This document shows, piece after piece, positions 3,369 through 28,932 of a stretch of 32,540 bases of DNA. The position numbers and the translations under genes were made by a program. Position 1 is the stretch's first letter. Each line of letters opens with the position of its first letter. Under the pieces are notes generated by a model. That model was not told the DNA's origin. It did no database searches and saw nothing but the letters and a program-made list of their open reading frames with translations. Location: IMG/VR virus record IMGVR_UViG_3300033153_007539, positions 1-32,540 of that record, one strand, 5' to 3'. This DNA is from a virus.

Positions 3369-3917
3369 TGGCAAATAAGCGTCGTTGGTTTCGACTAGGA
3401 AGCGGGGTGGCAGTTGGAGTTACAACACTTTTAGGATTATTCTGGTTTCTAACAATACAGTATGGTTTTATTATAACAGAAATGTGCAGGAACTTATGAA
3501 GACCCTTGTATATCTGAATTTGAAGTAAAAAATCCAAGAGGAATTTATGTGGATATTTATAGTGCTGACCAAGTTAAACTTGATTTCTTTCCAGAGATTT
3601 ATGATTATGCTTTGTTTGTTCCAGATAAGAGATGTTCTGCTACTGGGAGTTGTGCTTGTATTTTGAAGGACGGTAGAAAATTAGGATTCGAGGATTGGAG
3701 ATGTGTGGATTTTACTAATAAAACAAAACCACGAGAAGATAAAGTTTATAATTTTAGATTTCCAGCATACTCAACTATTAAATTTAGATTAGCAGGAATT
3801 AAGTTAGATACTAAAGATACTATTAAATGGTCTTTTGCTACAGGGGATGGAGAATTAGACCCTTATTGGGTTAGTAATGCTTATGGGAGGAATCAGTTTA
3901 TAATTCATTATGAATAA
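3368..3917 (+). pseudogene. Membrane-anchored surface protein, frameshifted
   Basis: Reading starts at ATG 3368 with basic residues and a hydrophobic helix (about residues 12-36), then stops at TGA 3497-3499. The +1 frame takes over from about 3477 and stays open to 3917. The joined product (about 182 residues) aligns by eye with the N-terminal region of the 1417-residue protein at 20751: a basic start, one membrane helix, C-x-G-T-x3-P-C-I, a beta-rich part, and D-T-I-K-W-S-F. One extra base near GAAATG (3479-3484) explains the break. GTG 3549 could start a shorter piece, but that would cut into the conserved domain. The end overlaps the start of the 3910 gene by 8 bases. It may be a dead gene, a programmed shift or an assembly error. 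Confidence 0.7.
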
Positions 3918-6900
3918 AAAATTTAATATGAAACCCAAAAAAGCCCAATTAAAAAGATTAATGACATTAGGATTATTTATTATGATTGGTTGTTTAGTTT
4001 TAGTAATGGCGACTTGGTATTCAGTAGGGGATGTAACAAATTCTTTTCAATTAGAATATCCTCTTAACGATTCGACAGTTCCTAATCATTATACTAATTT
4101 AAATGTAAGTGTAAATGAAACTGGTAATTTAAAAGTTCTTATTTTTGCAAACGAGAACAAATCAAGGTTAGATTTAAGGGATAGTTTAGTTTATATAAAT
4201 TTAAATGCAACAGAAAATATCTTTTATAATTTTACAACAATTCCAATTCAACATGATGATGAAGGACTTGTTGCTCTCTACCATTTTGATAATTTATCTG
4301 AATACGGAGAGAACTCTACTCATGTTTATGATTTTGCTAATAGTGGTGGTGTTAATAATGGGACTGTTGTTGGTGCTATTTGGAATGAGAGTGGGAAGAT
4401 TGGTGGTGCTTATACAGGGTTCTTAAATACAACAGCAAATCAAAAAGTAATAAAACGAACTGAGGTTGTTCAACCAACAGATAATTTTACCGTTAGTGTT
4501 TGGATATATCCTAAAGGTTATGGGGTTACAACTACCCAATATTCTCATATAATAAATTTTATTCCTGAGTATAGTGGGTGGATTAGCTGGGGTAAAGAAA
4601 GTGCAGGAAGTACTTTTTGTTATATGGCAGGACACACGGCAGAAGGAGATTTTGATACCAGTTGGAATAATAATTTATTAGAATTTACATCAACTTCATA
4701 TAATGGACTTACAAATTGTCCTATTGGAAAATGGGCTAATATAATAGTTACTGGGGAATATAACGGTAGTTCAACAGAAATTACTTTTTATATTAATGGT
4801 AATGAGGCTATGAATGCAAAGACTATAGGACCTATGATAAGTACAGGAAATACGATGCAAATTGGTTCTCATGATGGTTATCCCCAATTTAATTATAAGT
4901 CTTTTAATGGAACAATAGATGAAGTAGCAATTTATAATAAAACTTTAAATGAATCTGAAGTTTTAAATATTTATAGACTTGGAGCAAATAAAAAATATTA
5001 TTGGAAAGTAAATGCCACAGACACCTCTGGAAATTCTAATGAAAGTGAGATTTTAGAGTTTACAACAACTAATCCAATAATTACTATTAATTTTTCGGAT
5101 TCAATTGGAAATATAAGAAGTAATTTTTATGGGGTTAATACTCATGGGAAATGGGGAACAGATACAAGTTTAATTGATGTAGATGCAGATGGAACAAGAG
5201 ATACAGATTCAAATTATACTTGGCATAGAAAAGCATTTTTAAATTCAGGAATGACTATAATGAGGGCTGATATGTATTTAAGTAGTCTGGCTAATGAAGA
5301 TGGAACTTTTAAAACAACTTCAGGAAATAATGATAATAGAGCTATGAGATATGATTTAGTCAAATGGGCTTATGAGAATAATATTAAAATTCTATTTATT
5401 GCAAGTTCAATGCCTTCTTGGTTAAGAAATACAACAGAAGGATGGTGCACTACTTCTCCTTGGACATGCCCTCCAAAAAATTACACAAGATGGGGAGAGT
5501 TAGTCGTTGATTTTATAGATAATGTTACAGTTAATGGGTTATATAATTCTACAATTATGATAGAAGTTAAAAATGAACCAGATTTAATAAGTTTTTGGAT
5601 GAGTGATGTTGCTGTTACAAATATCAATAGAAGTATAGAATATAACAAATTCTATAATGCAACATGGAATGAAGTTAAAGAGAAATATCCAAATATGGCA
5701 GTTGGTGGTCCCGCTGTCGCAAGAGTAGAAACTGTTGGAGGCAAATTAATTTATCAAAATTGGTTAGGAAATTTCACAACAAATATGGATTTCTTTTCTT
5801 TTCATAGATATAGAACTATGTCTTTAGAAAATTATGATGATGTATTAAAATCAGACTATAATGACATAATCACAAATTGCAATACTTATGGGGCAAATTG
5901 TTCAAGAATTTTATTAGACGAATTTAATGAGTGGGATTCAAATAATAAATTAAATAATCAAGATTTTTGGGGAATGCAATTAGCTTTATCTTTTTCTGGA
6001 ACTATAAATAATTATCCAGAAAATGTGAGTATGGTTTCATATCAATGGGCAGAATTTTTAAATTATACAGAAGGAAGTGCAAATTATCCAGAATATCCAC
6101 AAAAGTGGGCAATGGTATCAGAACCACAATTAGAAAATGAATATTACAGAAGTTACAACGTAACAAAATCCTTCGCAACCTACCATCGCACAGGTTCAAC
6201 AGTATATACAAGCACTTCAGATAATAATGATGTTAAAGTTGTATTAAGTAAATATGGCTTAATGGATGCAATCACAATAATAAATACAGATTCAGAACAG
6301 GTTAATGTTACTTTAAATTTAGTAGGAAAAGTTCTTAATACTTTATATGATGTAGATGGAAATATTTATACAATAACAGATAATTCAACAGAAATCGGAC
6401 TTTTGGATGGTTATGAAATAAAATATTTATTTACAAGAATTTATGATAGAAAAGCAAATCTTGATTATTATACATATTCTCCAAATGTAAATCATGATAA
6501 TTTCAATTGGTCTTCTGGCTCTTATGATACAACATATTTAAAATTACAAAATTCAGAGGGGACAAACAAAGTAGATATTTATAATTTAACAAATGCTTTA
6601 GTTTATTATTCAAACGGAAGTATTGCAGGAGATAACAATCTGCAAAATAATGATGGAAATATAAATATTACTTTAACTCCAAATAATTATTCTTATGTTT
6701 TTGACCAAGCAAATATAACAGAAAATGCAGATAGAACAAACTTCCCAATTACTTTTGAATATCAAACAGATACTGAAAAATTACTAAAAAACACAATAAA
6801 CATGGTTAATTTAACTACTGTATTAAATGTCTCAAATTGCTCAATCAGTAATATTGAATATTATTCTACTACTGGAACTTATAGAAAAAACCTAAGCAGT

Positions 6901-7335
6901 TCAGATTGGAGTTGTTCAGGTAATACATTAATTTTTAATGACCCAATAGAATATGAACCAGATACCTATGCAGTAAACTTTTCAGTTACATTACCTACTT
7001 CAATTACCAGTTTTAGAGTGGCTTCTAATTCATCTACTCAATATAACATGACGCCAATAGGACAAAATGACACGGTTCCTATCTTTAACATAACAAGTTA
7101 TTCTCTATTTGATAGTTCTATCTGGTTAAGTGCTAATTTAAGTAATTCCTGTGTTAGTCTTTTCGCTGCGAATAATTCAGATAGAGATACTAAAAAGAAC
7201 ATCAACTCAACTTATTCAGACATGTTAGATTTAGGTGCTAATAGTGAAGAAGGTATTTGGATGTGGGTTGATTATAACTCTTGTAGTGTTTCAGGTAATA
7301 GTTTTGGATTCAAAATAGAAGGGAGGTATCCATAA
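3910..7335 (+). CDS. Membrane-anchored surface protein with LamG-like and GH-A-like glycosidase domains
   Basis: 1141 residues. Basic N-terminus, then a membrane helix (about 15-36). Residues about 116-355 form a LamG/concanavalin-like lectin domain (L-V-A-L-Y-H-F-D near the start, I-D-E-V-A-I-Y-N-K-T-L at the end), followed by a short fibronectin-like strand set (Y-Y-W-K-V-N-A-T-D). About 395-720 looks like a clan GH-A TIM barrel such as GH39 or GH5 relatives: K-N-E-P-D with likely acid/base Glu556, and L-L-D-E-F-N-E-W with likely nucleophile Glu671. Beta-rich domains follow. The last ~105 residues match the C-terminus of the 20751 product. Many N-x-S/T sequons imply an extracellular glycoprotein. 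Substrate unknown; it would cut or bind surface glycan. Whether it sits on the virion or on the infected cell is open. Confidence 0.75.
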   Translation: MNKKFNMKPKKAQLKRLMTLGLFIMIGCLVLVMATWYSVGDVTNSFQLEYPLNDSTVPNHYTNLNVSVNETGNLKVLIFANENKSRLDLRDSLVYINLNATENIFYNFTTIPIQHDDEGLVALYHFDNLSEYGENSTHVYDFANSGGVNNGTVVGAIWNESGKIGGAYTGFLNTTANQKVIKRTEVVQPTDNFTVSVWIYPKGYGVTTTQYSHIINFIPEYSGWISWGKESAGSTFCYMAGHTAEGDFDTSWNNNLLEFTSTSYNGLTNCPIGKWANIIVTGEYNGSSTEITFYINGNEAMNAKTIGPMISTGNTMQIGSHDGYPQFNYKSFNGTIDEVAIYNKTLNESEVLNIYRLGANKKYYWKVNATDTSGNSNESEILEFTTTNPIITINFSDSIGNIRSNFYGVNTHGKWGTDTSLIDVDADGTRDTDSNYTWHRKAFLNSGMTIMRADMYLSSLANEDGTFKTTSGNNDNRAMRYDLVKWAYENNIKILFIASSMPSWLRNTTEGWCTTSPWTCPPKNYTRWGELVVDFIDNVTVNGLYNSTIMIEVKNEPDLISFWMSDVAVTNINRSIEYNKFYNATWNEVKEKYPNMAVGGPAVARVETVGGKLIYQNWLGNFTTNMDFFSFHRYRTMSLENYDDVLKSDYNDIITNCNTYGANCSRILLDEFNEWDSNNKLNNQDFWGMQLALSFSGTINNYPENVSMVSYQWAEFLNYTEGSANYPEYPQKWAMVSEPQLENEYYRSYNVTKSFATYHRTGSTVYTSTSDNNDVKVVLSKYGLMDAITIINTDSEQVNVTLNLVGKVLNTLYDVDGNIYTITDNSTEIGLLDGYEIKYLFTRIYDRKANLDYYTYSPNVNHDNFNWSSGSYDTTYLKLQNSEGTNKVDIYNLTNALVYYSNGSIAGDNNLQNNDGNINITLTPNNYSYVFDQANITENADRTNFPITFEYQTDTEKLLKNTINMVNLTTVLNVSNCSISNIEYYSTTGTYRKNLSSSDWSCSGNTLIFNDPIEYEPDTYAVNFSVTLPTSITSFRVASNSSTQYNMTPIGQNDTVPIFNITSYSLFDSSIWLSANLSNSCVSLFAANNSDRDTKKNINSTYSDMLDLGANSEEGIWMWVDYNSCSVSGNSFGFKIEGRYP

Positions 7336-7366: not shown

Positions 7367-8017
7367 ATGGCATATTGTGTATACGGAGACATTAATCTGA
7401 TGAGCAATATTACTTCGAGTGATGTTGCAAATGAAGATATTACGAACTTAATAGCTGAAGCCACAAAACAAATTAATTCTGATATTAATGTTGAAGTTAT
7501 TAGAGAACCAATAAGTCCAATAGATAATACGAGAGAAAACAAAATAAATAGTTCAAATAAGACTTATTATGTCAGGAATTGGAACGGTAAGTTTTTAGCA
7601 GACCATAATAGTGACGGAGAGATAACTAAAGATGATGTTATAGTTTATCAAGTAACAAGTGATGGTACTGAAACTACTCCTACTATTACTTCAGTAGATG
7701 ATGATGATTGTAGTATTACATTAGAATCTGCACCATCCTCTGGAGTCCGACTTTATGTCACTTATTCATATTCTACAGTTAGACAATTAGTAGATAATGT
7801 CGACGAGAAACTTAAATTAGCTTGTGTTTTTTTGGCTACTGCATATTGTTATGCAAAGATAAATATAGGTAGAGCACCAAACGTTCAGTTTGGCACTACA
7901 AGAATAGCAAGACACATGGATTCATATAATCATTATTACGAAAGATATTTAGACTTAATTAGACAAATTAATAGTACGGAGGAAGTTCATTCTAAAGTGA
8001 GTGATACGACAATCTAA
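7367..8017 (+). CDS. Head-tail connector (gp6-like adaptor)
   Basis: 216 residues. The N-terminus reads Y-C-x-Y-G-D-I-N-L-M-S-N-I then D-I-T-N-L-I-A-E-A-T-K-Q-I-N, the layout of HK97 gp6-like connectors in which an early helix bundle forms the ring under the portal. The C-terminal part is again helical (L-K-L-A-C-V-F-L-A-T-A-Y-C). Between them is a beta-rich insert (about 65-135) holding D-H-N-S-D-G-E-I-T-K-D-D, an EF-hand-like loop. Order with the next neck genes supports the call. The stop overlaps the ATG of the glycosyltransferase gene (TAATG). Confidence 0.7.
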   Translation: MAYCVYGDINLMSNITSSDVANEDITNLIAEATKQINSDINVEVIREPISPIDNTRENKINSSNKTYYVRNWNGKFLADHNSDGEITKDDVIVYQVTSDGTETTPTITSVDDDDCSITLESAPSSGVRLYVTYSYSTVRQLVDNVDEKLKLACVFLATAYCYAKINIGRAPNVQFGTTRIARHMDSYNHYYERYLDLIRQINSTEEVHSKVSDTTI

Positions 8018-8655
8018 TGAGAGTTTTCGTAGGATTACCTATTTTTAACTTGCAGGATCCAAAGGTAGCAGAGTCACAGCAAATTTTATTTAATTCTACA
8101 AAGCATCAATTGTTTATTAATAGGGTAATTGGAGCAAATGTAGAACATGCAAGACAAATCTTAATGAAAAGATTTCTAAATTCAGACTGTGAATATTTCT
8201 TTTGTATAGATGCAGATAACTTTGTCTTAGAAAATCCTTATCCAGATTTAATAGATCATTTAATCTCTTTAGATAAAGATGTAGTAGGTGGAGTTTATGT
8301 TTTCAAACGAAGTCCGTTTTTACCAGTATTTAGACCATTAGATTTACAAAAGGAGTATGAAGAAAAAAGGAGTTTTCCAAAAGATTATAAATTTAAGATA
8401 CCAAATGAATTGTTTGAAGTTTGCTGGATTGGAGGCGGCTTTAAGATGGTAAAAAGAAATGTTTGTGAGAAGTTGCAAGAAGTTTATAAGTTCCCTAATC
8501 TACCTATGGAGTATAAAGGAGAGTATGTAAGTGAGGATTGGAGTTTCGATATCAGGGCGAGAGAACAAGGATTTACTATTTGGGCAGATCCTACTTTTAA
8601 ATTAGCTCATTTGGGTTCGTGTAATTATACTATAGAAAATTACGGAGGTAATTAA
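8017..8655 (+). CDS. GT-A-fold glycosyltransferase inside the neck gene cluster
   Basis: 212 residues. Starts R-V-F-V-G-L-P-I-F, has the metal-binding motif I-D-A-D-N-F (Asp65, Asp67), then V-V-G-G-V-Y, W-I-G-G-G-F (about 138-143) and E-D-W-S-F near 173. These are marks of a GT-A glycosyltransferase related to GT2. It should transfer a sugar from a nucleotide sugar in the cytoplasm; donor and acceptor are unknown. It is coupled to the connector gene upstream (TAATG) and touches the adaptor gene downstream, so it was inserted between two genes that normally sit together. GGAGG near its end serves the next gene. Confidence 0.8.
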   Translation: MRVFVGLPIFNLQDPKVAESQQILFNSTKHQLFINRVIGANVEHARQILMKRFLNSDCEYFFCIDADNFVLENPYPDLIDHLISLDKDVVGGVYVFKRSPFLPVFRPLDLQKEYEEKRSFPKDYKFKIPNELFEVCWIGGGFKMVKRNVCEKLQEVYKFPNLPMEYKGEYVSEDWSFDIRAREQGFTIWADPTFKLAHLGSCNYTIENYGGN

Positions 8656-11164: not shown

Positions 11165-13141
11165 ATGAAAGGAATACCGAAAGTATTAGTGAGTTGCCCG
11201 ACGAGTGATCGTCACTCCCATTTACTTGAGAGATGGATTGATCATCTAAATAGTCTAACTTATCCAAACTTTGAAGTTTTATTAGTGGATACTTCATTAG
11301 ATAAAGGAGAGTATTATAAATATCTAAAGAAATTAAAGGTTCATAAGAAAATTAATGTAATTAGACTAAAGTGGAATCCAGAAAAAAGGCATATACTTCA
11401 GCACTTAGCAGATGCCAGAGAGAATATTAGACAGTACGCTTTAAGGAACAACTTTGACTTTCTTTTCTTCTGTTTTCAAGGAGATACACAAATAGAAACG
11501 ATTAATGGGGCAAAAAAGATAAAGAATATAGAAATTGGAGAATTAGTTAAAACACATGATGGAGAATATAGAAGAGTAACTAAAATTTATAAAAGAAAAT
11601 ACCATCAAAAAAATGGAATCATTTGGGTTCGAGCAGGTAGGCAATTAATAAAAAATACTCCAGAGCATCCTTATTATGTTCTTAGGGATAATTGTTTTCA
11701 ATGGATTCATGCAAAAAATCTTTTAAGTACTGATAAATTAGCATACCCTATAAAAATCAAAGAAGACTTTATTAATTTTGATTGCCATGGGCGAGGTAGA
11801 AAATCTAAGATTCGTACTCCAGGAAAGATTTACAAAAAAAATTCAAGAAATAAGAATTTTAAGGTGGATTACTATGGTGATTATTTAGTTGATAAAGATT
11901 TAGCAAGGTTTTTTGGTTTATATTTAGCAGAAGGATGTCGTTCTTCAGATGGGATAAGATTTACTTTTAATAACAATGAATTAGAGTACATAGATTTTAT
12001 TAAGGAAGTTTGTGAAAAAAAATTTAATAGAACACCAACCATAGATAAAAGATGGGCAACAACAGTAAAATTAAATATAAAAGAATTTTCAAAAAGATTT
12101 TCTGAATGGTTTGGGATAAATGCAAGAGTTAAGAAGATTCCAGATTTTGTTTACGATTGGAATGACATTAATAAGGCTTCTTTTTTAAGAGGATATTTAG
12201 AAGGGGATGGCCATTTTAATAATTCTGGGAGTTGTTCTTATATAACTGCCAGTAAAGATTTAGATGAAGGTATTAAATTATTATCGAATAGTCTTGGATT
12301 AGCAAGAATTAAGACACAAATTGTTAAACCATTGAAAGTCATTCTAAAATCATCAAAAAGGGAAATAAAATCACAAGGAGGTTATCAGAGTTATATAAAT
12401 CAATATTCTACTTTTAAAATATTAGACCTTTGCGATGGCGAAATTTTTGGTAATTATCTTCTTGTTAATGCTAACATAGAACATAAAAAAAATAGAAACG
12501 AGTGTGATGTTTATAACTTGGAAGTTGAAGATAAACACACATACACCGCTAATGGTATTGCAGTCCACAATTGCGATGATGATATCTTTGTTCCTAAGAA
12601 TTCTATTCAAAAGTTAATTTCCAGAAATAAGGAATTGGTAGGCTTTTATGTTCATATTTATAATCCTTCTGCGAGAGTGCCTTGTGTCCAAAAAGAAGGA
12701 GGATTTGAGGTAGGAAAGGGCTGTTATTGGTTTAATTTCGCTGAGATTAATGAATACAAGAAATTTATTAGAAAGTATAAAAAGAATGAATTGACTTTAC
12801 AAGAGAAACATCTTATTCCATTTATTATTAAAGATAGATGGAGGCCAGATATAGTTCCTGTTTGGGCAGTAGGAATTGGTTGTTTAATGATTAGAAAAGA
12901 AGTTTTAGAGAAAGTTCCATTTACTACACACGATACTTTCATTTGGGGAGAAGATAATTGGTTCTTTCAGGCTTGCGAAGATAAAAAATTCCAATTTTGG
13001 TTGGATACCAGCGTTAGGGCAATACATAAAAATACTAATTGGAATATGATTAGTGCAAAATGCAGGCAAAATACTCGTATGGTATTAGCGATTGGTCCAA
13101 CTAACGCCAAGGGAAATGTTTTATTGAGGGGTAAAAAATGA
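11165..13141 (+). CDS. GT2-type glycosyltransferase containing an intein
   Basis: 658-residue precursor. The N-extein (1-102) starts K-V-L-V-S-C-P-T-S-D-R, a GT-A nucleotide-sugar-binding start, and ends F-L-F-F. The intein occupies 103-469; the C-extein resumes C-D-D-D-I-F-V-P, so splicing rebuilds a GT-A DxD metal site. Downstream V-G-I-G-C-L-M-I and W-G-E-D-N-W-F-F are the usual acceptor-side and catalytic-loop motifs. The mature enzyme would be 291 residues. It opens the cassette behind the tail tube gene and overlaps the next GT2 gene by four bases (ATGA). Without splicing the enzyme would be inactive. Donor and acceptor unknown. Confidence 0.85.
   Translation: MKGIPKVLVSCPTSDRHSHLLERWIDHLNSLTYPNFEVLLVDTSLDKGEYYKYLKKLKVHKKINVIRLKWNPEKRHILQHLADARENIRQYALRNNFDFLFFCFQGDTQIETINGAKKIKNIEIGELVKTHDGEYRRVTKIYKRKYHQKNGIIWVRAGRQLIKNTPEHPYYVLRDNCFQWIHAKNLLSTDKLAYPIKIKEDFINFDCHGRGRKSKIRTPGKIYKKNSRNKNFKVDYYGDYLVDKDLARFFGLYLAEGCRSSDGIRFTFNNNELEYIDFIKEVCEKKFNRTPTIDKRWATTVKLNIKEFSKRFSEWFGINARVKKIPDFVYDWNDINKASFLRGYLEGDGHFNNSGSCSYITASKDLDEGIKLLSNSLGLARIKTQIVKPLKVILKSSKREIKSQGGYQSYINQYSTFKILDLCDGEIFGNYLLVNANIEHKKNRNECDVYNLEVEDKHTYTANGIAVHNCDDDIFVPKNSIQKLISRNKELVGFYVHIYNPSARVPCVQKEGGFEVGKGCYWFNFAEINEYKKFIRKYKKNELTLQEKHLIPFIIKDRWRPDIVPVWAVGIGCLMIRKEVLEKVPFTTHDTFIWGEDNWFFQACEDKKFQFWLDTSVRAIHKNTNWNMISAKCRQNTRMVLAIGPTNAKGNVLLRGKK
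11471..12571 (+). mobile_element. Intein with LAGLIDADG homing endonuclease
   Basis: 367 residues in frame in the glycosyltransferase. Block A: Cys103 then F-Q-G-D-T-Q-I-E-T. Block B: N-T-P-E-H-P-Y-Y-V (the T-x2-H motif). Two dodecapeptide motifs: F-F-G-L-Y-L-A-E-G (about residues 255-263) and L-R-G-Y-L-E-G-D-G (about 340-350) with catalytic acids Glu and Asp. Block F: D-V-Y-N-L-E-V-E. Block G: G-I-A-V-H-N followed by Cys +1 of the host protein. All splice residues (Cys1, block B His, penultimate His, final Asn, Cys+1) are present, so it should splice and could home. Confidence 0.93.
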
Positions 13142-13881
13142 AAGATCTAATTACAGTAGGAATACCTACTTACAAGATAATACCTCAGATTTATGGAGCC
13201 ATAGATAGTGTCCTCGAACAAAATATTGATTTTGAAATATTGATTGTAAATGATAGTGGAAATTCAGAACATCCAAACATTAAAAGATTAGCAAAGGATT
13301 TTGAGCATCTTAATAACTTTAGGATAGTTCATCATAAAGAAAACTTAGGAATTGGTGCAGCAAGAAATACTATTATAAACAATGCAAATGGGAAGTATAT
13401 CTTTTTTTTGAGTGATGACGATGCACTTTTACCAGATTCTTTAAAGAAATTTCTTAAAGTAGCAAAAGAAAATCCAAATTCTATTATTTATTCAAGTTAT
13501 TTAGTAATAGATTCAAATGGGAAGATAATTCAAAGAGTTAATGTCCAAAGGGCTCCAAGTAAAGAATCGCTTAAACAAAAGGTAATTGAGTTTGCAGTAC
13601 ATGATAGTATGTTCATTTGTTATAATTTCCTTGCACCAACTAAACTAATGAAAGAATATAAATTTAAATCAGAATTAAGATTTGGTGAGGATTTAGAACA
13701 TTTGCTTAGATGCTTGCTTATTGAAGATGTAAACTTTATAGGAATATCCGAATTTTTATTTAAGTATAGTGTTCATATGAATTCTACTTCTACTTTAAAG
13801 AGAAAAGAAATACATGAAAATGATAATAAAATAAGAAAACAAATTAATAAATTAGCTAAGAGGCAAATATTCGATGGATAA
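13138..13881 (+). CDS. GT2 family glycosyltransferase
   Basis: 247 residues, ATGA overlap with the previous gene. Standard GT2 motifs: I-T-V-G-I-P-T-Y at the start, I-L-I-V-N-D-S (about 34-40), N-L-G-I-G-A-A-R-N (69-77), and F-F-L-S-D-D-D-A (metal-binding Asp93-95). The C-terminal part is helical with G-E-D-L-E-H. Expected to add one sugar in the cytoplasm. It overlaps the radical SAM gene by 8 bases, so the cassette is one operon. Confidence 0.88.
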   Translation: MKDLITVGIPTYKIIPQIYGAIDSVLEQNIDFEILIVNDSGNSEHPNIKRLAKDFEHLNNFRIVHHKENLGIGAARNTIINNANGKYIFFLSDDDALLPDSLKKFLKVAKENPNSIIYSSYLVIDSNGKIIQRVNVQRAPSKESLKQKVIEFAVHDSMFICYNFLAPTKLMKEYKFKSELRFGEDLEHLLRCLLIEDVNFIGISEFLFKYSVHMNSTSTLKRKEIHENDNKIRKQINKLAKRQIFDG

Positions 13882-14818
13882 CAAAATAGAATCCTATAGT
13901 GCAGCGAGCATAATACCCACAAAATTATTTCATATTAATTCTATAAAAAAAGGAAAAATAAAGCCCCTTCATATACAATTAATTCCAACTAATAAATGTA
14001 ATTTAAATTGTCCTTTTTGTAGTTGTGGAGATAGAGATAGGCAAAAAGAGTTGACATTTGAAGAAATCATAAAGATTTTAGATATCTGTGCGAAATACGG
14101 AACCAAAGCAATCACAGTCACAGGAGGGGGAGAACCACTATTCCATCCAAAGATTAATCAAATTTTTAGATATGCGCATAAGAAAGGAATGCAGATAGGT
14201 TTAGTTACTAATGGAACAACACTTAATAGATTACAGGAACATAAAAATTTAACTTGGTGTAGGATTAGTAGTGCTGATAATCGAATACCTGCATATAAAA
14301 TAATCTCTGCTGCTTTAAAAGTTAATCCTCATACAGACTGGGCATTTAGTCATGTGATTACAAATAAACCAAATTATTCAATTATGAGGCATCTAATCAA
14401 GTTTGCTAATAATTATAATTTTACTCATATTAGATTGGTTTCTGACCTATGCGATTTAGATAATGTTCCTTCTATGGATGAAATTAAACTTAATTTATCA
14501 TTGGTGAATGATTCTAAAGTTATTTATCAGGGAAGGAAAGAGAGTACACGCGGAACAAAAAAGTGCTATATTTCTCTTCTTAAACCAGTCATTGCTCCAG
14601 AAGGAATATTTGGATGTTGCGGCGCTCAATACGCAATTCACGGTCAGAAAAAGGATTTCATAGATAAAATGAAAATGGGAGAACTTTCGGATTTAAAGAA
14701 TATTTTTGAACAACAGAAATATTTTGATGGGAGTATATGTGATATATGTTATTACAAATCCTATAACGAAATATTATCTAAATTATTATCTAAACCAGAT
14801 CATTTAGAGTTTGTATGA
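13874..14818 (+). CDS. Radical SAM enzyme with C-terminal cysteine cluster
   Basis: 314 residues. Cys42, Cys46 and Cys49 form C-x3-C-x2-C, which binds the [4Fe-4S] cluster; V-T-G-G-G-E-P (about 77-83) is the SAM-binding loop. A C-terminal set of cysteines (K-C-Y-I, G-C-C-G-A-Q-Y, I-C-D-I-C-Y-Y) suggests a SPASM/twitch-like auxiliary Fe-S site. Such enzymes modify peptides, sugars or cofactors; nothing here fixes the substrate. Placed between a GT2 gene and a methyltransferase gene with overlaps on both sides, so a sugar modification or a modification of the same acceptor is the natural guess. The MoaA-like fold is certain, the reaction is not. Confidence 0.85.
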   Translation: MDNKIESYSAASIIPTKLFHINSIKKGKIKPLHIQLIPTNKCNLNCPFCSCGDRDRQKELTFEEIIKILDICAKYGTKAITVTGGGEPLFHPKINQIFRYAHKKGMQIGLVTNGTTLNRLQEHKNLTWCRISSADNRIPAYKIISAALKVNPHTDWAFSHVITNKPNYSIMRHLIKFANNYNFTHIRLVSDLCDLDNVPSMDEIKLNLSLVNDSKVIYQGRKESTRGTKKCYISLLKPVIAPEGIFGCCGAQYAIHGQKKDFIDKMKMGELSDLKNIFEQQKYFDGSICDICYYKSYNEILSKLLSKPDHLEFV

Positions 14819-15324
14819 GAGTCCAAAATAATCCATATTATAGAATAATGATGAGACTTATTCCAGCAGATGCTACAGTCCTTGATTTAGGATGTGGCAG
14901 AGGAGATCCTTTTATTGATACCAATTTTAAGAAGTTAATTGGTATTGACTTATTTAGCAAGAAATTTGATATGCCAGAATATACTAAAATAATGTACAGA
15001 GACATTAAGAAAATAGATAAAATGTTTCTTCCTAAATCTTTTGATGTGATTACTGCGATAGATGTAATAGAACATTTAACAAAAAGAGAAGGAGGAACCT
15101 TGCTCAAAAATGCTGAAATAATTGCTAAAGATATGATTCTTATTTTTACACCATTAGTTTGGTCAGATAATAAAGAGCATGTAGAGGATGAATCACTTTG
15201 GTGCTATGGAAATAAGTATAATTATCATAAATCACTCTGGACAATAAAAGATTTTATTAAACGAGGATATAATGTAGTACCTTGTCAAGAAGGATATGTG
15301 CTCGCTGTTAAGGTATTAAAATGA
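14815..15324 (+). CDS. Class I SAM-dependent methyltransferase
   Basis: 169 residues, ATGA overlap with the radical SAM gene. Motif I V-L-D-L-G-C-G-R-G (22-30), I-G-I-D-L after it, and F-D-V-I-T-A-I-D-V-I-E-H-L (76-88) are as in Methyltransf_11-type small-molecule or sugar methyltransferases. The short length leaves little room for a nucleic-acid-binding part. Ends with another ATGA overlap onto the kinase-like gene. Confidence 0.85.
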   Translation: MRVQNNPYYRIMMRLIPADATVLDLGCGRGDPFIDTNFKKLIGIDLFSKKFDMPEYTKIMYRDIKKIDKMFLPKSFDVITAIDVIEHLTKREGGTLLKNAEIIAKDMILIFTPLVWSDNKEHVEDESLWCYGNKYNYHKSLWTIKDFIKRGYNVVPCQEGYVLAVKVLK

Positions 15325-16384
15325 AGAAAGAAATTATAATCCTAATTGGAAGCGGATGTGCTGGAAAAACAACTTACGCTAAGAAGATTGAGAAAGAACA
15401 ACTTACGCTAAGAAGATTGAGAAAGAAGGATATGAATACATTGGAATTGATCAAAATTATTATTATACTGGAAAACCAGAGTATTTTGATTTTCTTGATT
15501 TTGTAGTAGAAAAATTAAATAGTAGTCCTAACAAAAAGTTTGTTCTCGATGGATATATATATTTCGATAAGCAGTTTAATTATTTAAGAGCAAGGTTAAA
15601 ATATCATAAAATTAAACCGATTATTGTTTTTGCTAAACCAACAATAATCCAACAAAGACTCAAACAAAAAGGGGCTAAGCAAGACATTTGGACATTATAT
15701 ACAAAAGGAATTCCCAATTATTGGGATATGAATGAATGTGAATTTGTAGATTGCTCTAAACAGCCCAGAAAATCAAGTTATGCTAAGATGATATTTATGT
15801 TCGGAACAAAAGAAGAAGTTATTGACTTTCTTGAGAAATTAAAAACAAAAAGTTATGATAAATATTATCAAACAATAGAATTACCATTTGGAATGAAAAT
15901 TAAAGGATATAATTCTAACTATGAACATAAAAGTTGGGAAATAATTTCTAAAATTTATGATTTCAAGAATAAGAAAATTGCTGACTTTGGTTGTTTTAAT
16001 GGTTACTTTTGTTTTGAAGCAATAGATTTAGGGGCGGAAGTCGTTGGTTATGATAAGTGTATTCCTGCAATTGAAACAGCAAAAGAAATAGCGAGATTAA
16101 AGGGAGCAAAAGTTAAATTCAAAGTTTTTGATATAGAAAAAGAGAATATCCCAGAAAATTATGATTTGATTTTATTTTTAAATACTTCTCACCATTTAAC
16201 TAATCCTTCTATAGCTCTTGATAAAATATTTAAAAAAACAAAGGCAGTCATAGTAGAAATGCAATTTTCTAATATAAATAAGAAAGAAGTGATTGAAATT
16301 GCAAAAGAAAATAATCATAAATTAAAAAAGGAAATTGAATCAGCAAGGTTTAGAACTATAATGCTTTTTGAGAGGGAAGAATGA
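15321..16384 (+). pseudogene. P-loop kinase-methyltransferase fusion gene broken by a 29-bp duplication
   Basis: Reading begins at ATG 15321 (ATGA overlap) with I-I-L-I-G-S-G-C-A-G-K-T-T, a Walker A loop. A tandem duplication puts it out of frame and it stops at 15506. Without one 29-bp copy, one frame runs to TGA 16384: 344 residues, a P-loop nucleotide/sugar-kinase-like part (1 to about 135, with V-L-D-G-Y and a lid-like R-L-K-Q-K-G) followed by a class I methyltransferase (I-A-D-F-G-C-F-N-G-Y-F, then V-V-G-Y-D-K, D-L-I-L-F-L-N-T-S-H-H-L). Methyltransferase translation alone could restart at ATG 15728. The break looks recent since the downstream frame has no further lesions. Overlaps the GT4-type gene by four bases (ATGA). 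Confidence 0.85.
15368..15425 (+). repeat. Perfect 29-bp tandem duplication
   Basis: Copy one is 15368-15396 and copy two 15397-15425, identical; the match continues two bases (AA) beyond, so the exact breakpoint is ambiguous. 29 is not a multiple of three, so it shifts the kinase-methyltransferase frame. Confidence 0.95.
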
Positions 16385-17379
16385 AAAGAATAATTTTATC
16401 GAATTGGACAGTACGCGAAGATTGCGCAGGAGGTTGCGAAACAGTTTATGGATACTTAAAAAGAGTATTTCCCCAAGCTGAATTACTTTCCGGAAGAAGA
16501 TTTGCTAAAGGATCAAAAGATATTATCGAAATGATAGCAAAAACAGATCAATATTTATTATCTGAATATAAAAAAGACAAGAATATTTTAATCATTAGAG
16601 ATGCAGAATTTGGCGGGGTTTTAGATATTTCAATGATTCCTCAAATAGTTTTGTTTCAGAATCCTTATAAGACAATAAATGAAAAATTAGTAAATATAAA
16701 TCATCCTTGGATAGTAAAGGGTTACATAAATAAAGTCAAGAAATATCCAAAAATAGCGACGACAAACTTCATAGCCAATGAAATGAAGTCTAACAATTTA
16801 AAACCAGATTATATAGTTCCTAATTGTGTAGATTTAAACTTATTTAAACCTAAAAATAAAAAAGAACTTAGGAAGAAATATCATATCCCCCAAAACAAGC
16901 GTATTGGTATTTGGATAGGTATGAGTAATATAATAAAAAATTTTCAAATGCTTTTAAATCTTATAGAACACCAAGAAGATATATTTTGGATTTTAATAGC
17001 AAAAGACAAATTTCCAACACTTGCAAGTAATACTAAGACCTTCCATAATCAAACACATGAACAAGTAAGTGAATTATTAAACTGTGCAGATTTCTTTATG
17101 TTAACTTCTCCAATTGAAGGGTGCGGACTTGCAGCATTTGAAGCAATGGCGACGAATCTCCCTTGTATATTAATGAGGACAGGATACTTTTGGGATTTCT
17201 GGGATGATAAAATTGGCATTTCAGTAGACTGGCGTGATTTTAAAGCTCATGTTAAAGCAATTCAACAAATAAATAAAATAAAAACTAATAGTAGAAAGGT
17301 TTTAATAAATCAAAAACTTGATTATATTACATGGAGAAACGCTTGGAAGAGCATAGTAGAAGAGGTAAAATATGGATAG
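16381..17379 (+). CDS. GT4-type glycosyltransferase
   Basis: 332 residues. GT-B layout: an N-terminal domain with C-A-G-G-C-E-T-V-Y-G-Y-L near residue 12-23, then V-P-N-C-V-D-L-N-L-F (about 141-150), the usual GT4 hinge, then I-G-I-W-I-G and the E-x7-E motif S-P-I-E-G-C-G-L-A-A-F-E (Glu246 and Glu254), which binds the donor sugar nucleotide. A retaining glycosyltransferase acting in the cytoplasm. Last gene of the cassette; its TAG overlaps the next start by eight bases, so it is read through into the tail genes. Confidence 0.87.
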   Translation: MKRIILSNWTVREDCAGGCETVYGYLKRVFPQAELLSGRRFAKGSKDIIEMIAKTDQYLLSEYKKDKNILIIRDAEFGGVLDISMIPQIVLFQNPYKTINEKLVNINHPWIVKGYINKVKKYPKIATTNFIANEMKSNNLKPDYIVPNCVDLNLFKPKNKKELRKKYHIPQNKRIGIWIGMSNIIKNFQMLLNLIEHQEDIFWILIAKDKFPTLASNTKTFHNQTHEQVSELLNCADFFMLTSPIEGCGLAAFEAMATNLPCILMRTGYFWDFWDDKIGISVDWRDFKAHVKAIQQINKIKTNSRKVLINQKLDYITWRNAWKSIVEEVKYG

Positions 17380-20750: not shown

Positions 20751-23700
20751 ATGGCAAAAAGAGTTTATTCAAATTCAGTAAAGAAATGGGCTTTAGGAGC
20801 AGGAATACCAAGTGGAATAGTAGGATTTGCATTGATTTTCATTTATTTATCTGCAATTGGAGTAATAGAAGTAACGGGTTATTCAGACAGTTATGTCTGT
20901 GAAGGTACATTAAATAATCCTTGTATTGCTTTAATCAATTTTACAGCAAAGGAAGATATTTTTTTATATCCTTTGAATTATGATCCTTGGGATAGGACTA
21001 CGCCATTTCAAACAGATAAAGACATAGAATCTTGGAAAATGTATAGATCTTGGGGAAGTAGTTGGAGAGAAATAGATTTATATAAAAGATGTACAAGTAC
21101 ATGGTGTGGTGCTCCTCCTAATTCTCCAAATAATTTATATTCTTTTGCTTTCAGAAAAGATAGAGATTATCAAATTAAGATAGAAGCAGTTAAGAAAAGT
21201 CCTTATGACACAATTAAATGGTCTTTTACTAAATACGTAGACCCTTTTTTCTATGGAATTGACTCTCCAGATATAGAAGCAACTAAAATTACTATGGAGT
21301 TAGGAAGTCAAATTAATATTACTACAAATTTAACAGATTATTCTGGAGGAGTTTGTGTTGATATAGATCATCCAGATTATGGAAATAATTATGCTTGTGG
21401 AACACCAAGTGCTAATTTTTTATTTAATATTTCTTATTTTAGGAAAGATGAATTAAATGATTCTTCTACTCAAAAAGATTTAACATATAGTGGATCTAAT
21501 GATATCGGAATTGAAAGAGAGGGTTGGAACTCATCAGTTTGTGCGGTGGATTGTGGACGTGGATTTGATGAAGATTTTACTACCTATGCAAAAACAAAAG
21601 ATGCTTCTCCATATTATACATATATCTATGAAAATTTCACAATTCCTTCTTGGTTTGATATTTCAGAAGGAGATACTGCTACATGGTATTTTAGGTCTGG
21701 ATGGGAAACTGGCGAAAGTCCAACATATATCGGATGTGATACTTCTGGTGCTAGCACATATTCTAATTTCTATTCTACTGGTTGTCAAGGTTGCGCTACA
21801 ACACGAGCTATTCCCTCTACTTGTTTAGATAATGGAAATACACTTACAATGAGAACGAGGATAGTTAAAAGTGGTGGTGGTACAACACCTTGGAGCTGGT
21901 ATTATGATGGAAACGTAACTTTTCAAGATTTCGGAAATCAGACAGTTTATATAAAGGGTCATCAATATGATGAGGTCGAGGGGCTTGTTATTAATTTAAC
22001 TGGGCATTCAAACTTGGGATCCTATCCAACCAATGTTAAAATTTATGTAAACAATACTTTATCAAATGATGTTGGACTTTTATTTGATGGGCAAATAACA
22101 GAGACTTTATTAAATGATAATTCAGCAACTAAAAATCGAACCTATACTACTTCACAAACTTTAACTGAATATTTAAGAATTCCTAAAACTGCTGAGGTTT
22201 CTTCGGCTCTTTTAAGTTTAAGTGGTTATAAAGCAAAAGATTCTTCTCTTATTATAGAAGATGATACTGAAGATGCATCTTGCGATATTCAATGTACTTA
22301 TATTAATGTTTGTAATGGTACAGATTATACTGGATGTTATTATTCTGGAGGTAATGGATGTAGTTTGAGTGATACTTCAAAATGTATAGATGAAGACTTA
22401 GATACATATTGTTATATACAGGCATCCCAAACAGTTAGTTGTATAGTAAACGCATGGCATTATGAAAATTTTACAGTTCCAACTCCTGTTGAAAATATCG
22501 AAGAAGCAACTGTTACTGTTAAATATGATTTGAAAGGATTTGATGATAGACATATTTCTGGAATAGATATAGAATGTAATGAAGGTTCAGGTTTTAGTGA
22601 AGGAGGTTATAATATTTTTGTTCATCGTGCAGTTGATTCTGGGATTACTACAGTCACACGAGATGTACCTTCTGCTTGCATTACTAATGCAAAATCCACA
22701 GGAGTATTAGAATTTGAGTATAGATTATTAAAAGCAACAGGTAGCACAGATGTTTGGACGTATGTAAGATTTTATGATGCCAGTGTAACATGGATAAACA
22801 ATTCTTATCCTGATAATCTTAGTTTAGAGGTTGGTATATCTGATGGAATACATGAGTGGAATTTCACAGGCGAATTTAATTCTACACATTCTCCAAATAG
22901 AACGACTAATTTTAGTTCATCATTAAATAGTTTTTTAAGTGTATGTGTTTCAGATGATGACGGTTATTGTGCAATTCCATTGTATTTTGTTAGCCAAACT
23001 GCTGGGAAAATTGAGATTTCAGATATAGAAATAAATTATACAAATGATCCAAATCCAATAACACTTTCAGCAGATTTAGTTTCTTCTTTTCTTGGAAATT
23101 CTACAAATTTCGCAGATATTCCTATCAAGTTTGAATCAAGTCAAGCGGGAATTATTAATATTTCAGATATTAGATTTGATTATGTTGGTGGTAATGATAC
23201 TACTGATGTTTTAGTTTATTCCCATTTAAATGATGTTTTTAAAACATCATTCAATAATTCTCTTCTTAAAGAAAATTTAACCTTTACTCAGAAAGAAGAT
23301 TTTGTGAGAATACTTAATTTTTCTAAATATTCCACAATAAATTCTGCAGTTTTAAACTTGACAGGTTATTCAATTGATATTTTTCCAGGTTGGGATAAAA
23401 AGCAAGAAATTAAAGTCCAAGAGAATTCGGGAAATTCCTTTGCAAATTACACAACAAAAATTGATGTCCCTTATGATAGTGATATGCAAGCAGATTTTGA
23501 TGATTTGAGATTTATGAATAGTTTTCAATCAGCAAGTCTGCCCTATTGGATTGAAAATTATACTTCTGGGACATCTGCTTGTGTTTGGGTGATGGTTCCT
23601 GATTTAGTTTCTAATGAAAATACAACAATTTATATGTATTACGGAAATAGCAGTGTTGAGACTACTTCGAGCAAAAATGGGACATTTCTCTTTGTAGACG

Positions 23701-25004
23701 AATTTAATAATAGTTTGGAATCAAGTAAGTGGCAAACAAATATTCAATGTAGTGGTGGATCTATTTATTCATCAGAAGGAAGGGTTTATTTACAAAATAA
23801 TGAGATTACTGGCTGTAATGTTGTTATGGCAACAGTTATGAACTTTACTTCTCCAGTAGTGGCGACATTTAATTTTAAGTTTGTTGCATTAGGATCTCCT
23901 TCATCAAGAAGTTTATTTGGATTAACAAATTCTATAGATGACACGGATTATACTTTGTATGGGAAAAGGGCTATAACTCATTATTGGGGTGATTGGAGTA
24001 ATATTTTATCAGAAGGAGGGATAGAACCAATCGACAATCCGATAACGATTACTCCAAAATTAGAACATACCTTAGATTTAGATTATTCTGAAAAAATCAT
24101 TTTCAAAGCAGTAAATAATAGGACATTTATCAGAAATGACACATTCCGTATGGTATCAACACATTCTAATTCAACAATTTATAAGTTTTTTATGGGAATA
24201 CAGTCTGGATCGTCAACATTGATAAATATTTCCATAGATGACTTTAGAGTAAGGGCTTATGCAGATACTGAGCCCACGATTTCCTTTGGTGATGAAGAAA
24301 CTGGAACACAATTTCCCTCCAATGTGAGTATGAGTTCGGATGTTCAAATATTTTATCAAGAAGGATATTTAACAACAACTAATCAAACAGAAGATTTTGC
24401 CTCTATTTTGAATACCAATATTAATTCAGGGTTATGCGATTGTGTTGGATGTAATCTTGTTGGGGCAATGTGTTTTATCAATATAACATTTCATTCAGAT
24501 ACTATAGGAATTTTAAAATATTCGGATATTAATATTAGTTATGATATTGAAGACAAATCAAATAATGAAACACTTAGTATAATTAACTATTTTTCCAAAT
24601 GGGCTTATAATCTTCCGAGATATGTAAACTATCTTGAATTTATACCAAAGAATCCGACTGCTAAGAACGTAACTCCTTATGGACAAATAAGTTTAATACC
24701 TATTTTTAATATTACTACAATGAATTATGGTGGAAAGAATATGAATTTAAGTATCTATCTTAATGAAAGTATGCCTTGTGTTAATCTAACTTATTCAACA
24801 GATAGTGCCAAATCAAATGGAACATTATTAACTAATCAAACTTGGCAATATTTTAATACAAATTTAGAATATAATAATGTTAGTTCATTATATCTCTGGG
24901 CGGATTACGAATGTAGTTATACTAATTGGTATTTGTTTTATCCTGAAATCTATATATCGGGGTGCGCTTCTGATGTTGATGTTTGTGATAGGAGGTTCGA
25001 CTGA
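20751..25004 (+). CDS. Giant membrane-anchored surface protein with DUF2341 and lectin-like domains
   Basis: 1417 residues. A basic start, a membrane helix (about 19-43), and an N-terminal domain (to about 170, ending D-T-I-K-W-S-F) shared with the 3368 gene. Then beta-rich repeats: two Cys-rich units with D-E-D-x2-T-Y and Y-E-N-F-T-x-P, and units of the L-R-I...V-S-S-A-L-L-S-L-S-G-Y type. A DUF2341 domain begins near Trp881 (K-Q-E-I-K-V-Q, ending M-Y-Y-G-N-S-S-V-E), followed by a concanavalin-like part (V-D-E-F-N-N-S-L-E-S-S-K-W). The last 130 residues hold the T-P-Y-G-Q...P-I-F-N-I-T module shared with the 3910 product. Dozens of N-x-S/T sequons. Set between tail and hub genes, so probably a receptor-binding tail protein; its membrane helix is odd for that. 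Confidence 0.78.
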   Translation: MAKRVYSNSVKKWALGAGIPSGIVGFALIFIYLSAIGVIEVTGYSDSYVCEGTLNNPCIALINFTAKEDIFLYPLNYDPWDRTTPFQTDKDIESWKMYRSWGSSWREIDLYKRCTSTWCGAPPNSPNNLYSFAFRKDRDYQIKIEAVKKSPYDTIKWSFTKYVDPFFYGIDSPDIEATKITMELGSQINITTNLTDYSGGVCVDIDHPDYGNNYACGTPSANFLFNISYFRKDELNDSSTQKDLTYSGSNDIGIEREGWNSSVCAVDCGRGFDEDFTTYAKTKDASPYYTYIYENFTIPSWFDISEGDTATWYFRSGWETGESPTYIGCDTSGASTYSNFYSTGCQGCATTRAIPSTCLDNGNTLTMRTRIVKSGGGTTPWSWYYDGNVTFQDFGNQTVYIKGHQYDEVEGLVINLTGHSNLGSYPTNVKIYVNNTLSNDVGLLFDGQITETLLNDNSATKNRTYTTSQTLTEYLRIPKTAEVSSALLSLSGYKAKDSSLIIEDDTEDASCDIQCTYINVCNGTDYTGCYYSGGNGCSLSDTSKCIDEDLDTYCYIQASQTVSCIVNAWHYENFTVPTPVENIEEATVTVKYDLKGFDDRHISGIDIECNEGSGFSEGGYNIFVHRAVDSGITTVTRDVPSACITNAKSTGVLEFEYRLLKATGSTDVWTYVRFYDASVTWINNSYPDNLSLEVGISDGIHEWNFTGEFNSTHSPNRTTNFSSSLNSFLSVCVSDDDGYCAIPLYFVSQTAGKIEISDIEINYTNDPNPITLSADLVSSFLGNSTNFADIPIKFESSQAGIINISDIRFDYVGGNDTTDVLVYSHLNDVFKTSFNNSLLKENLTFTQKEDFVRILNFSKYSTINSAVLNLTGYSIDIFPGWDKKQEIKVQENSGNSFANYTTKIDVPYDSDMQADFDDLRFMNSFQSASLPYWIENYTSGTSACVWVMVPDLVSNENTTIYMYYGNSSVETTSSKNGTFLFVDEFNNSLESSKWQTNIQCSGGSIYSSEGRVYLQNNEITGCNVVMATVMNFTSPVVATFNFKFVALGSPSSRSLFGLTNSIDDTDYTLYGKRAITHYWGDWSNILSEGGIEPIDNPITITPKLEHTLDLDYSEKIIFKAVNNRTFIRNDTFRMVSTHSNSTIYKFFMGIQSGSSTLINISIDDFRVRAYADTEPTISFGDEETGTQFPSNVSMSSDVQIFYQEGYLTTTNQTEDFASILNTNINSGLCDCVGCNLVGAMCFINITFHSDTIGILKYSDINISYDIEDKSNNETLSIINYFSKWAYNLPRYVNYLEFIPKNPTAKNVTPYGQISLIPIFNITTMNYGGKNMNLSIYLNESMPCVNLTYSTDSAKSNGTLLTNQTWQYFNTNLEYNNVSSLYLWADYECSYTNWYLFYPEIYISGCASDVDVCDRRFD

Positions 25005-28483: not shown

Positions 28484-28645
28484 TCAATTTGATGTTGCTT
28501 TTCTTACAATATTTTTTATACACTTATACCTCTTTCCGCAATTAAGACATTCTTCTACTTTATATAATTTCTCCTTAGTAAAGATTTGTTGTCTATGCCC
28601 ACATTTTGGACACTTTACTATAGTTATTGAATATCTAAATCCCAT
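28484..28645 (-). CDS. Small zinc-ribbon protein (53 aa)
   Basis: 53 residues. Two Cys pairs, Cys12-x2-Cys15 (V-K-C-P-K-C-G-H) and Cys33-x2-Cys36 (E-C-L-N-C-G-K), 18 apart, make a zinc ribbon; a basic tail follows. Starts 22 bases inside the end of the HNH gene. It probably binds nucleic acid or a polymerase; role unknown. Confidence 0.65.
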   Translation of the reverse strand: MGFRYSITIVKCPKCGHRQQIFTKEKLYKVEECLNCGKRYKCIKNIVRKATSN

Positions 28646-28932
28646 CTTTTTTTTATCTCCGTTTGCATTGGCTGAGTATGATATCCATATCTCTTTAGCT
28701 TATTATGCCAACTTGCGTGTTTTTTATGGTTTTTGAATATCATAAGATTTTCTATTTTATTATTTTTTTTATTTAAATCGATATGGTGTACACACTCATT
28801 ACGTTTTAAACTTCTTTTTAGGAAGTCCTCGCAGATTTTCCTATGTTCCAAAATCCATCCTTTCTTTGTTTTTGAGTATTTATGTTCGGGACAATAAATC
28901 TCGATATATCCATTCTTAATTCTTATTTTCAT
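28624..28932 (-). CDS. HNH endonuclease (HNH_3 type)
   Basis: 102 residues. N-terminal strands with Y-I-E-I-Y-C-P-E-H, then W-I-L-E-H-R, and the core E-C-V-H-H-I-D-L-N (His49, His50, Asp52), K-I-E-N-L (Asn62) and H-x2-H (His69, His72). This His-His...Asn...His set is the ββα-metal nuclease site of small phage HNH proteins, often selfish homing enzymes. Its start overlaps the upstream gene end by four bases. Unlike the HNH gene at 1518 it is intact and of another subfamily. Confidence 0.85.
   Translation of the reverse strand: MKIRIKNGYIEIYCPEHKYSKTKKGWILEHRKICEDFLKRSLKRNECVHHIDLNKKNNKIENLMIFKNHKKHASWHNKLKRYGYHTQPMQTEIKKRWDLDIQ

Follow-up and report, generated by a model that had tools for sequence, protein, structure and literature searches.

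A class 1 intein predicted to split a virus-encoded GT-A glycosyltransferase just before its DxD metal site

The window analysed here is the whole of a linear IMG/VR record (IMGVR_UViG_3300033153_007539; 32,540 bases) of a tailed virus for which metagenomes are the sole source, and in which tape-measure, tail-completion and baseplate-type genes are present. One of its genes, the first of a cassette that continues with a GT2 enzyme, a radical SAM enzyme, two methyltransferases and a GT4 enzyme, carries an insert in frame. The features of this gene and its cassette are as follows.

11165–13141 (+): precursor open reading frame (N-extein, intein and C-extein), 658 aa, frame without a stop
11165–11470 (+): N-extein, 102 aa, ending F-L-F-F; predicted GT-A nucleotide-binding half (PT..R, first Asp D42), with PF00535, TIGR04440 and HpsN matches
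11471–12571 (+): predicted class 1 intein with LAGLIDADG homing endonuclease, 367 aa, precursor residues 103–469, TGT...AAT
12572–13141 (+): C-extein, 189 aa, GED motif at 12947–12955; phrog_1574 match, E229 and F233 invariant
12572–12574 (+): +1 Cys codon, extein residue 103, read from the sequence; Ile or Thr in relatives
12575–12583 (+): DDD codons of the predicted DxD metal site, extein D104–D106; invariant, and profile-aligned with the DxD of solved GT-A enzymes
13138–13881 (+): next gene, GT2 glycosyltransferase (PF00535, 3.5e-25)
13874–14818 (+): radical SAM enzyme (PF04055, 5e-18)
14815–16384 (+): two methyltransferases (14815–15324 and 15728–16384), by profile matches
16381–17379 (+): GT4-type glycosyltransferase (PF00534, 4.5e-10)

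Translation gives exactly the intein boundaries, 11471–12571, and the joined extein of 291 aa that an earlier sequence-only reading of this DNA had proposed. Within the insert, motifs follow the canonical order CFQGDT, TPEH, LYLAEG, KKIPDFV, LRGYLEGDG, VYNLEVEDKHTY and AVHN|C, at these positions.

11471–11488 (+): splice block A, CFQGDT, nucleophile Cys1; the Hint_2 match begins at intein residue 1
11657–11668 (+): splice block B, TPEH (TxxH), intein residues 63–66, by motif
11918–11935 (+): first LAGLIDADG motif, LYLAEG, acid Glu154; also in the L014 intein described below
12131–12151 (+): endonuclease block D, KKIPDFV; K221, K222 and P224 kept in the L014 intein
12185–12211 (+): second LAGLIDADG motif, LRGYLEGDG, acid Asp246; LAGLIDADG_3 match
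12509–12571 (+): splice blocks F and G, VYNLEVEDKHTYTANGIAVHN, penultimate His and terminal Asn, by motif and by TIGR01443 intein_Cterm (32.6 bits)

The insert thus reads as a complete class 1 intein with an intact-looking LAGLIDADG endonuclease, and the claim that all splice blocks and two LAGLIDADG motifs are present holds, with Pfam, NCBIfam and structure comparison concurring. Assignment to class 1 follows from Cys1 at the start of the Hint match, the TxxH motif, HN followed by Cys, and homologues of the host that run through the junction; assignment as a homing endonuclease follows from two motifs with their acids (E154 and D246) together with the fold. Among Pfam models, Intein_splicing scored 44.1 bits (curated cut-off 35.8), and the Hint and LAGLIDADG_3 kinship suggested earlier is borne out by scores above both cut-offs (Hint_2, 34.5 bits against 28.4, starting at residue 1; LAGLIDADG_3, 36.8 against 22.5). 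The NCBIfam model intein_Cterm (TIGR01443) gave 32.6 bits (cut-off 15.6), and intein_Nterm was weak at 13.9 bits, under its cut-off of 24.5. Block F of inteins commonly has Asp; here it carries Asn, as does the related L014 intein. The intein is poorer in GC than its flanks (28.4% versus about 33%; at third codon positions 0.17 versus 0.28–0.30), but other genes of the window are equally low at third positions, so the difference cannot count as strong evidence that the intein arrived recently.

An AlphaFold model of the intein built from two sequences has a low mean pLDDT of 55, with about 70–84 in the endonuclease part. It resembles the TliVMA intein (Z 18.2, 3.5 Å over 175 residues) and I-DmoI (Z 14.5), and its top Foldseek match is PI-SceI (E 5e-12), although Foldseek and VIA matches scarcely reach the Hint half, which is poorly modelled. 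A model of the precursor from a single sequence was useless (pLDDT 35). With the class 1 LAGLIDADG inteins PI-SceI, TliVMA and PI-PkoII the viral intein shares block order, Cys1, TxxH, HN|C and a two-motif endonuclease, and its model is structurally like TliVMA and PI-SceI; it differs in low sequence identity and in its glycosyltransferase host, where that group sits in ATPase, polymerase or nucleotide enzymes. Full-length phage relatives, 20–27% identical, lie in methyltransferase, thymidylate synthase, polymerase, ribonucleotide reductase and other genes. The closest full-length phage intein among the matches listed is 27% identical, and none of the matches listed for the intein query in phages has a glycosyltransferase-annotated host gene. 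The query also aligns over its full length inside the phage P1 dmt gene and with Dam-family genes of many E. coli plasmids, which suggests intein-like elements in those genes.

Once joined, the 291-aa extein is predicted to be a GT-A (GT2-like) glycosyltransferase. The precursor reaches only 17.7 bits with PF00535, over residues 18–71 and below the cut-off of 23.3, whereas the joined extein reaches 27.2 bits over residues 18–120, above the cut-off and across the junction at 102/103. The HpsN and TIGR04440 models also cross the junction, under their own cut-offs, and a phrog_1574 match spans extein residues 88–257. The sequence-only reading had expected uninterrupted homologues to align through the junction, and a search with the joined extein found them, mainly in the cyanobacterial HpsN family. 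Of 386 genomes from one phylum, that of G008 (a genome whose locus bears the title of a cyanobacterium), 23 contain a relative at E <= 1e-4, and most of these matches run through the junction. Twenty of the 23 were inspected as loci and are uninterrupted frames of about 330–360 aa, reading (I/T)DDD(V) where the virus has C-DDD-I. A wider alignment-based survey gave strong matches in 43 of 194 genomes, almost all of them open frames of normal length. The cyanobacterial HpsN-type GT2 enzymes share with the viral extein the GT-A core, PT..R, Asp42 and DDD; they differ in having no intein and in carrying Ile or Thr in place of the +1 Cys. Identity over the whole protein is about 27–28%, and P12, T13, R16, D42, D104–D106, E229 and F233 are invariant between the joined extein and four of these relatives.

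Support across the junction, counted in bits, is modest. Against a profile of the 20 uninterrupted relatives, the joined extein scores 38.7 bits and the precursor 30.3. When the C-extein was shuffled before joining, 200 such controls had a mean of 32.0 bits and a maximum of 36.0; the C-extein by itself gives no score. A profile of the extein with its relatives matches solved GT-A enzymes, SpsA, chondroitin synthase and GalT1 among them, and in the alignments printed its DDD column falls on their DxD. The nucleotide-binding half has a GT-A profile match that includes the DxD, and an acidic motif of the (E/D)D catalytic-base type, GED, follows at extein 228–230.

Alignment with the uninterrupted relatives places the intein as had been claimed, immediately before the DxD aspartates: the insert sits one residue before the invariant DDD and parts it from the nucleotide-binding half. 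The further claim that this is an unusual target stands for the host class and not for the position. Inteins favour conserved functional sites (PMC2814812), phage inteins likewise (PMC5050341), and 62–67% of bacterial and archaeal inteins lie in replication, recombination and repair proteins (reviewed in PMC5874633); insertion at an active site is therefore ordinary and the host is unusual. Mycobacteriophage inteins at active centres (TerL, TOPRIM, nucleotidyltransferase and methyltransferase; PMC5050341) have in common with the present case a viral gene and insertion at a catalytic or metal motif, but their host proteins work on DNA or nucleotides or serve in packaging, and the word 'glycosyl' is absent from that report. 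We found no report of a glycosyltransferase intein in the literature covered, a scope outside which most subscription papers lay. As for the idea that the enzyme itself donates Cys+1, the residue is needed by the intein and adjoins the aspartates, but it is not conserved, being Ile in nearly all aligned relatives and Thr in one. The viral Cys may either have been in the viral lineage already or have arrived with the insertion.

We consider it very likely that the locus holds a class 1 intein, probably still mobile, in a virus-encoded GT-A (GT2-like) enzyme that needs splicing for activity. The 658-aa precursor would be translated with its nucleotide-sugar half apart from the DxD aspartates, and that separation should leave it without activity. 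The Hint domain (Cys1, TxxH, His366-Asn367 and Cys+1) would excise itself and ligate F102 to C103, and the ligated 291-aa enzyme would regain FF-C-DDD-IF. This accords with the earlier view that the enzyme depends on splicing, the spliced protein being, we infer, the active form. The freed 367-aa, two-motif LAGLIDADG endonuclease would cleave copies of the gene that lack the intein, at the sequence coding for the conserved FLFF|CDDD stretch, and repair of a cut copy would insert the intein. Selfish persistence would explain the site, since the DNA target is conserved and imprecise loss destroys the enzyme.

The expected dependence of activity on splicing also invites the reading that the intein now serves as a co-opted switch, with a cue such as redox state, temperature or metal activating the glycosyltransferase during infection. 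Conditional inteins and splicing-based regulation have precedents in RadA (PMC5790916) and mycobacterial DnaB (PMC6195587), and Cys1 and Cys+1 are potentially redox-sensitive. However, the apparently intact endonuclease argues for a selfish element, and insertion at an active site with a Cys nucleophile is ordinary among inteins; we regard co-option as quite improbable. That splicing is conditional and acts to postpone or gate glycan synthesis by the virus, whose large surface proteins would be N-glycosylated, is very unlikely, and splicing as a regulator of glycan synthesis, which had been raised from the letters, is not supported.

The Asn in block F and the intein_Nterm score under its cut-off could instead indicate a Hint element that fails to splice or only cleaves, leaving the protein unspliced or as separate N and C fragments, and the gene a decaying passenger whose loss at least two further glycosyltransferases of the virus might compensate. 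Yet every catalytic splice residue is present, intein_Cterm scores well above its cut-off, and the extein retains its glycosyltransferase motifs and an open frame, which makes decay hardly likely, the least probable of the readings weighed here. The host might also be another GT-A-fold protein, for instance a nucleotidyltransferase, with DDD there by chance: it shares little sequence overall with known GT2 enzymes (27–28% identity to the cyanobacterial relatives), and phage records have no match to the extein. Against this stand the PF00535 score above cut-off, the HpsN and TIGR04440 matches, the GED motif and the place of the gene within a glycosyltransferase cassette, so that this reading, too, is very improbable. 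A GT-A glycosyltransferase, as originally named and as the PF00535 score and the aligned uninterrupted relatives indicate, is the reading that we retain.

Close relatives were sought in several collections. Peptide patterns of the extein or intein found none in the viral contigs, an extein alignment search of those contigs found none, the extein had no match in the phage records up to E 1, and extein peptide patterns found none in the genome contigs. Four loci (L002–L005) with relatives of the window's methyltransferase-like gene have no match to the extein. Because no close orthologue or empty-site virus turned up in the viral contigs, phage records and genome contigs searched, homing and the ancestral +1 residue remain unseen. 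For other inteins at a DxD site, the pattern VHN-C-D-D-x4-P yielded nothing beyond apparent chance matches in 84,980 species genomes and the viral contigs, and its version with an open +1 position gave none in the viral contigs, an absence that is weak evidence since exact patterns miss variants.

Elsewhere in the window are two large surface-like proteins, one of 1141 aa (3910–7335, +) with LamG and GH39 matches and one of 1417 aa (20751–25004, +) with DUF2341. They carry 51 and 52 N-x-S/T sequons where about 26 and 22 are expected (z 5.9 and 7.2); control motifs, whether reversed, shifted or D-x-S/T, stay near expectation. The enrichment suggests that virion or surface proteins are N-glycosylated and, tentatively, that the host is an archaeon; a link between these proteins and the intein-bearing glycosyltransferase is speculation. 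Matches of the cassette genes in phage records are mixed and distant. Among the structural genes lies a small GT-A-like protein (8017–8655, +; phrog_1574) that distantly resembles a protein of Sulfolobus filamentous virus 1, Caulobacter phage Cr30 and cyanophages. A free-standing HNH_3 endonuclease frame (28624–28932, −) is a second possible mobile element.

A junction scan of the viral contigs with GxVHN-C-D-x-D returned 13 stretches, whose matches include inteins in apparent topoisomerase, QueE-like and terminase genes. In one IMG/VR contig (L013:4759-6915, −) an intein splits a DegT/DnrJ/EryC1 sugar aminotransferase. In another (L014:4702-6654, −; IMGVR_UViG_3300023256_000674), and also in L006 and L008, an intein precedes CDPD in a possible glycosyltransferase within a viral glycan cassette. 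The L014 intein and ours share 31% identity over the alignment, the motifs, the VYN block F and the VHN|C end. Genes neighbouring the L014 case encode a GDP-mannose dehydratase, a sugar nucleotidyltransferase and a GT4 enzyme; the L014 host, though, has no match to GT-A models, and the glycosyltransferase assignment there is weak (phrog_7162, E 0.037). A Mu F-like head protein of the same record (L035:1444-3258, −) contains a second Hint element, in which a DUF559-type nuclease domain replaces LAGLIDADG. A related association is that reported for free-standing LAGLIDADG endonucleases in haloarchaeal glycosylation clusters (PMC5867893).

The present case would widen the host range of inteins to the active site of a glycosyltransferase, and the sequon enrichment of the two large surface-like proteins may matter as much as the intein. 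Split glycosyltransferases may be mislabelled by annotation pipelines, because the precursor scores under the Pfam glycosyltransferase cut-off. The locus also offers a small system, in which splicing of a precursor predicted to be inactive would restore a DxD site, with mass or enzyme activity as readout. Together with L013 and L014, it suggests that inteins reside in viral glycan cassettes more than has been noticed.
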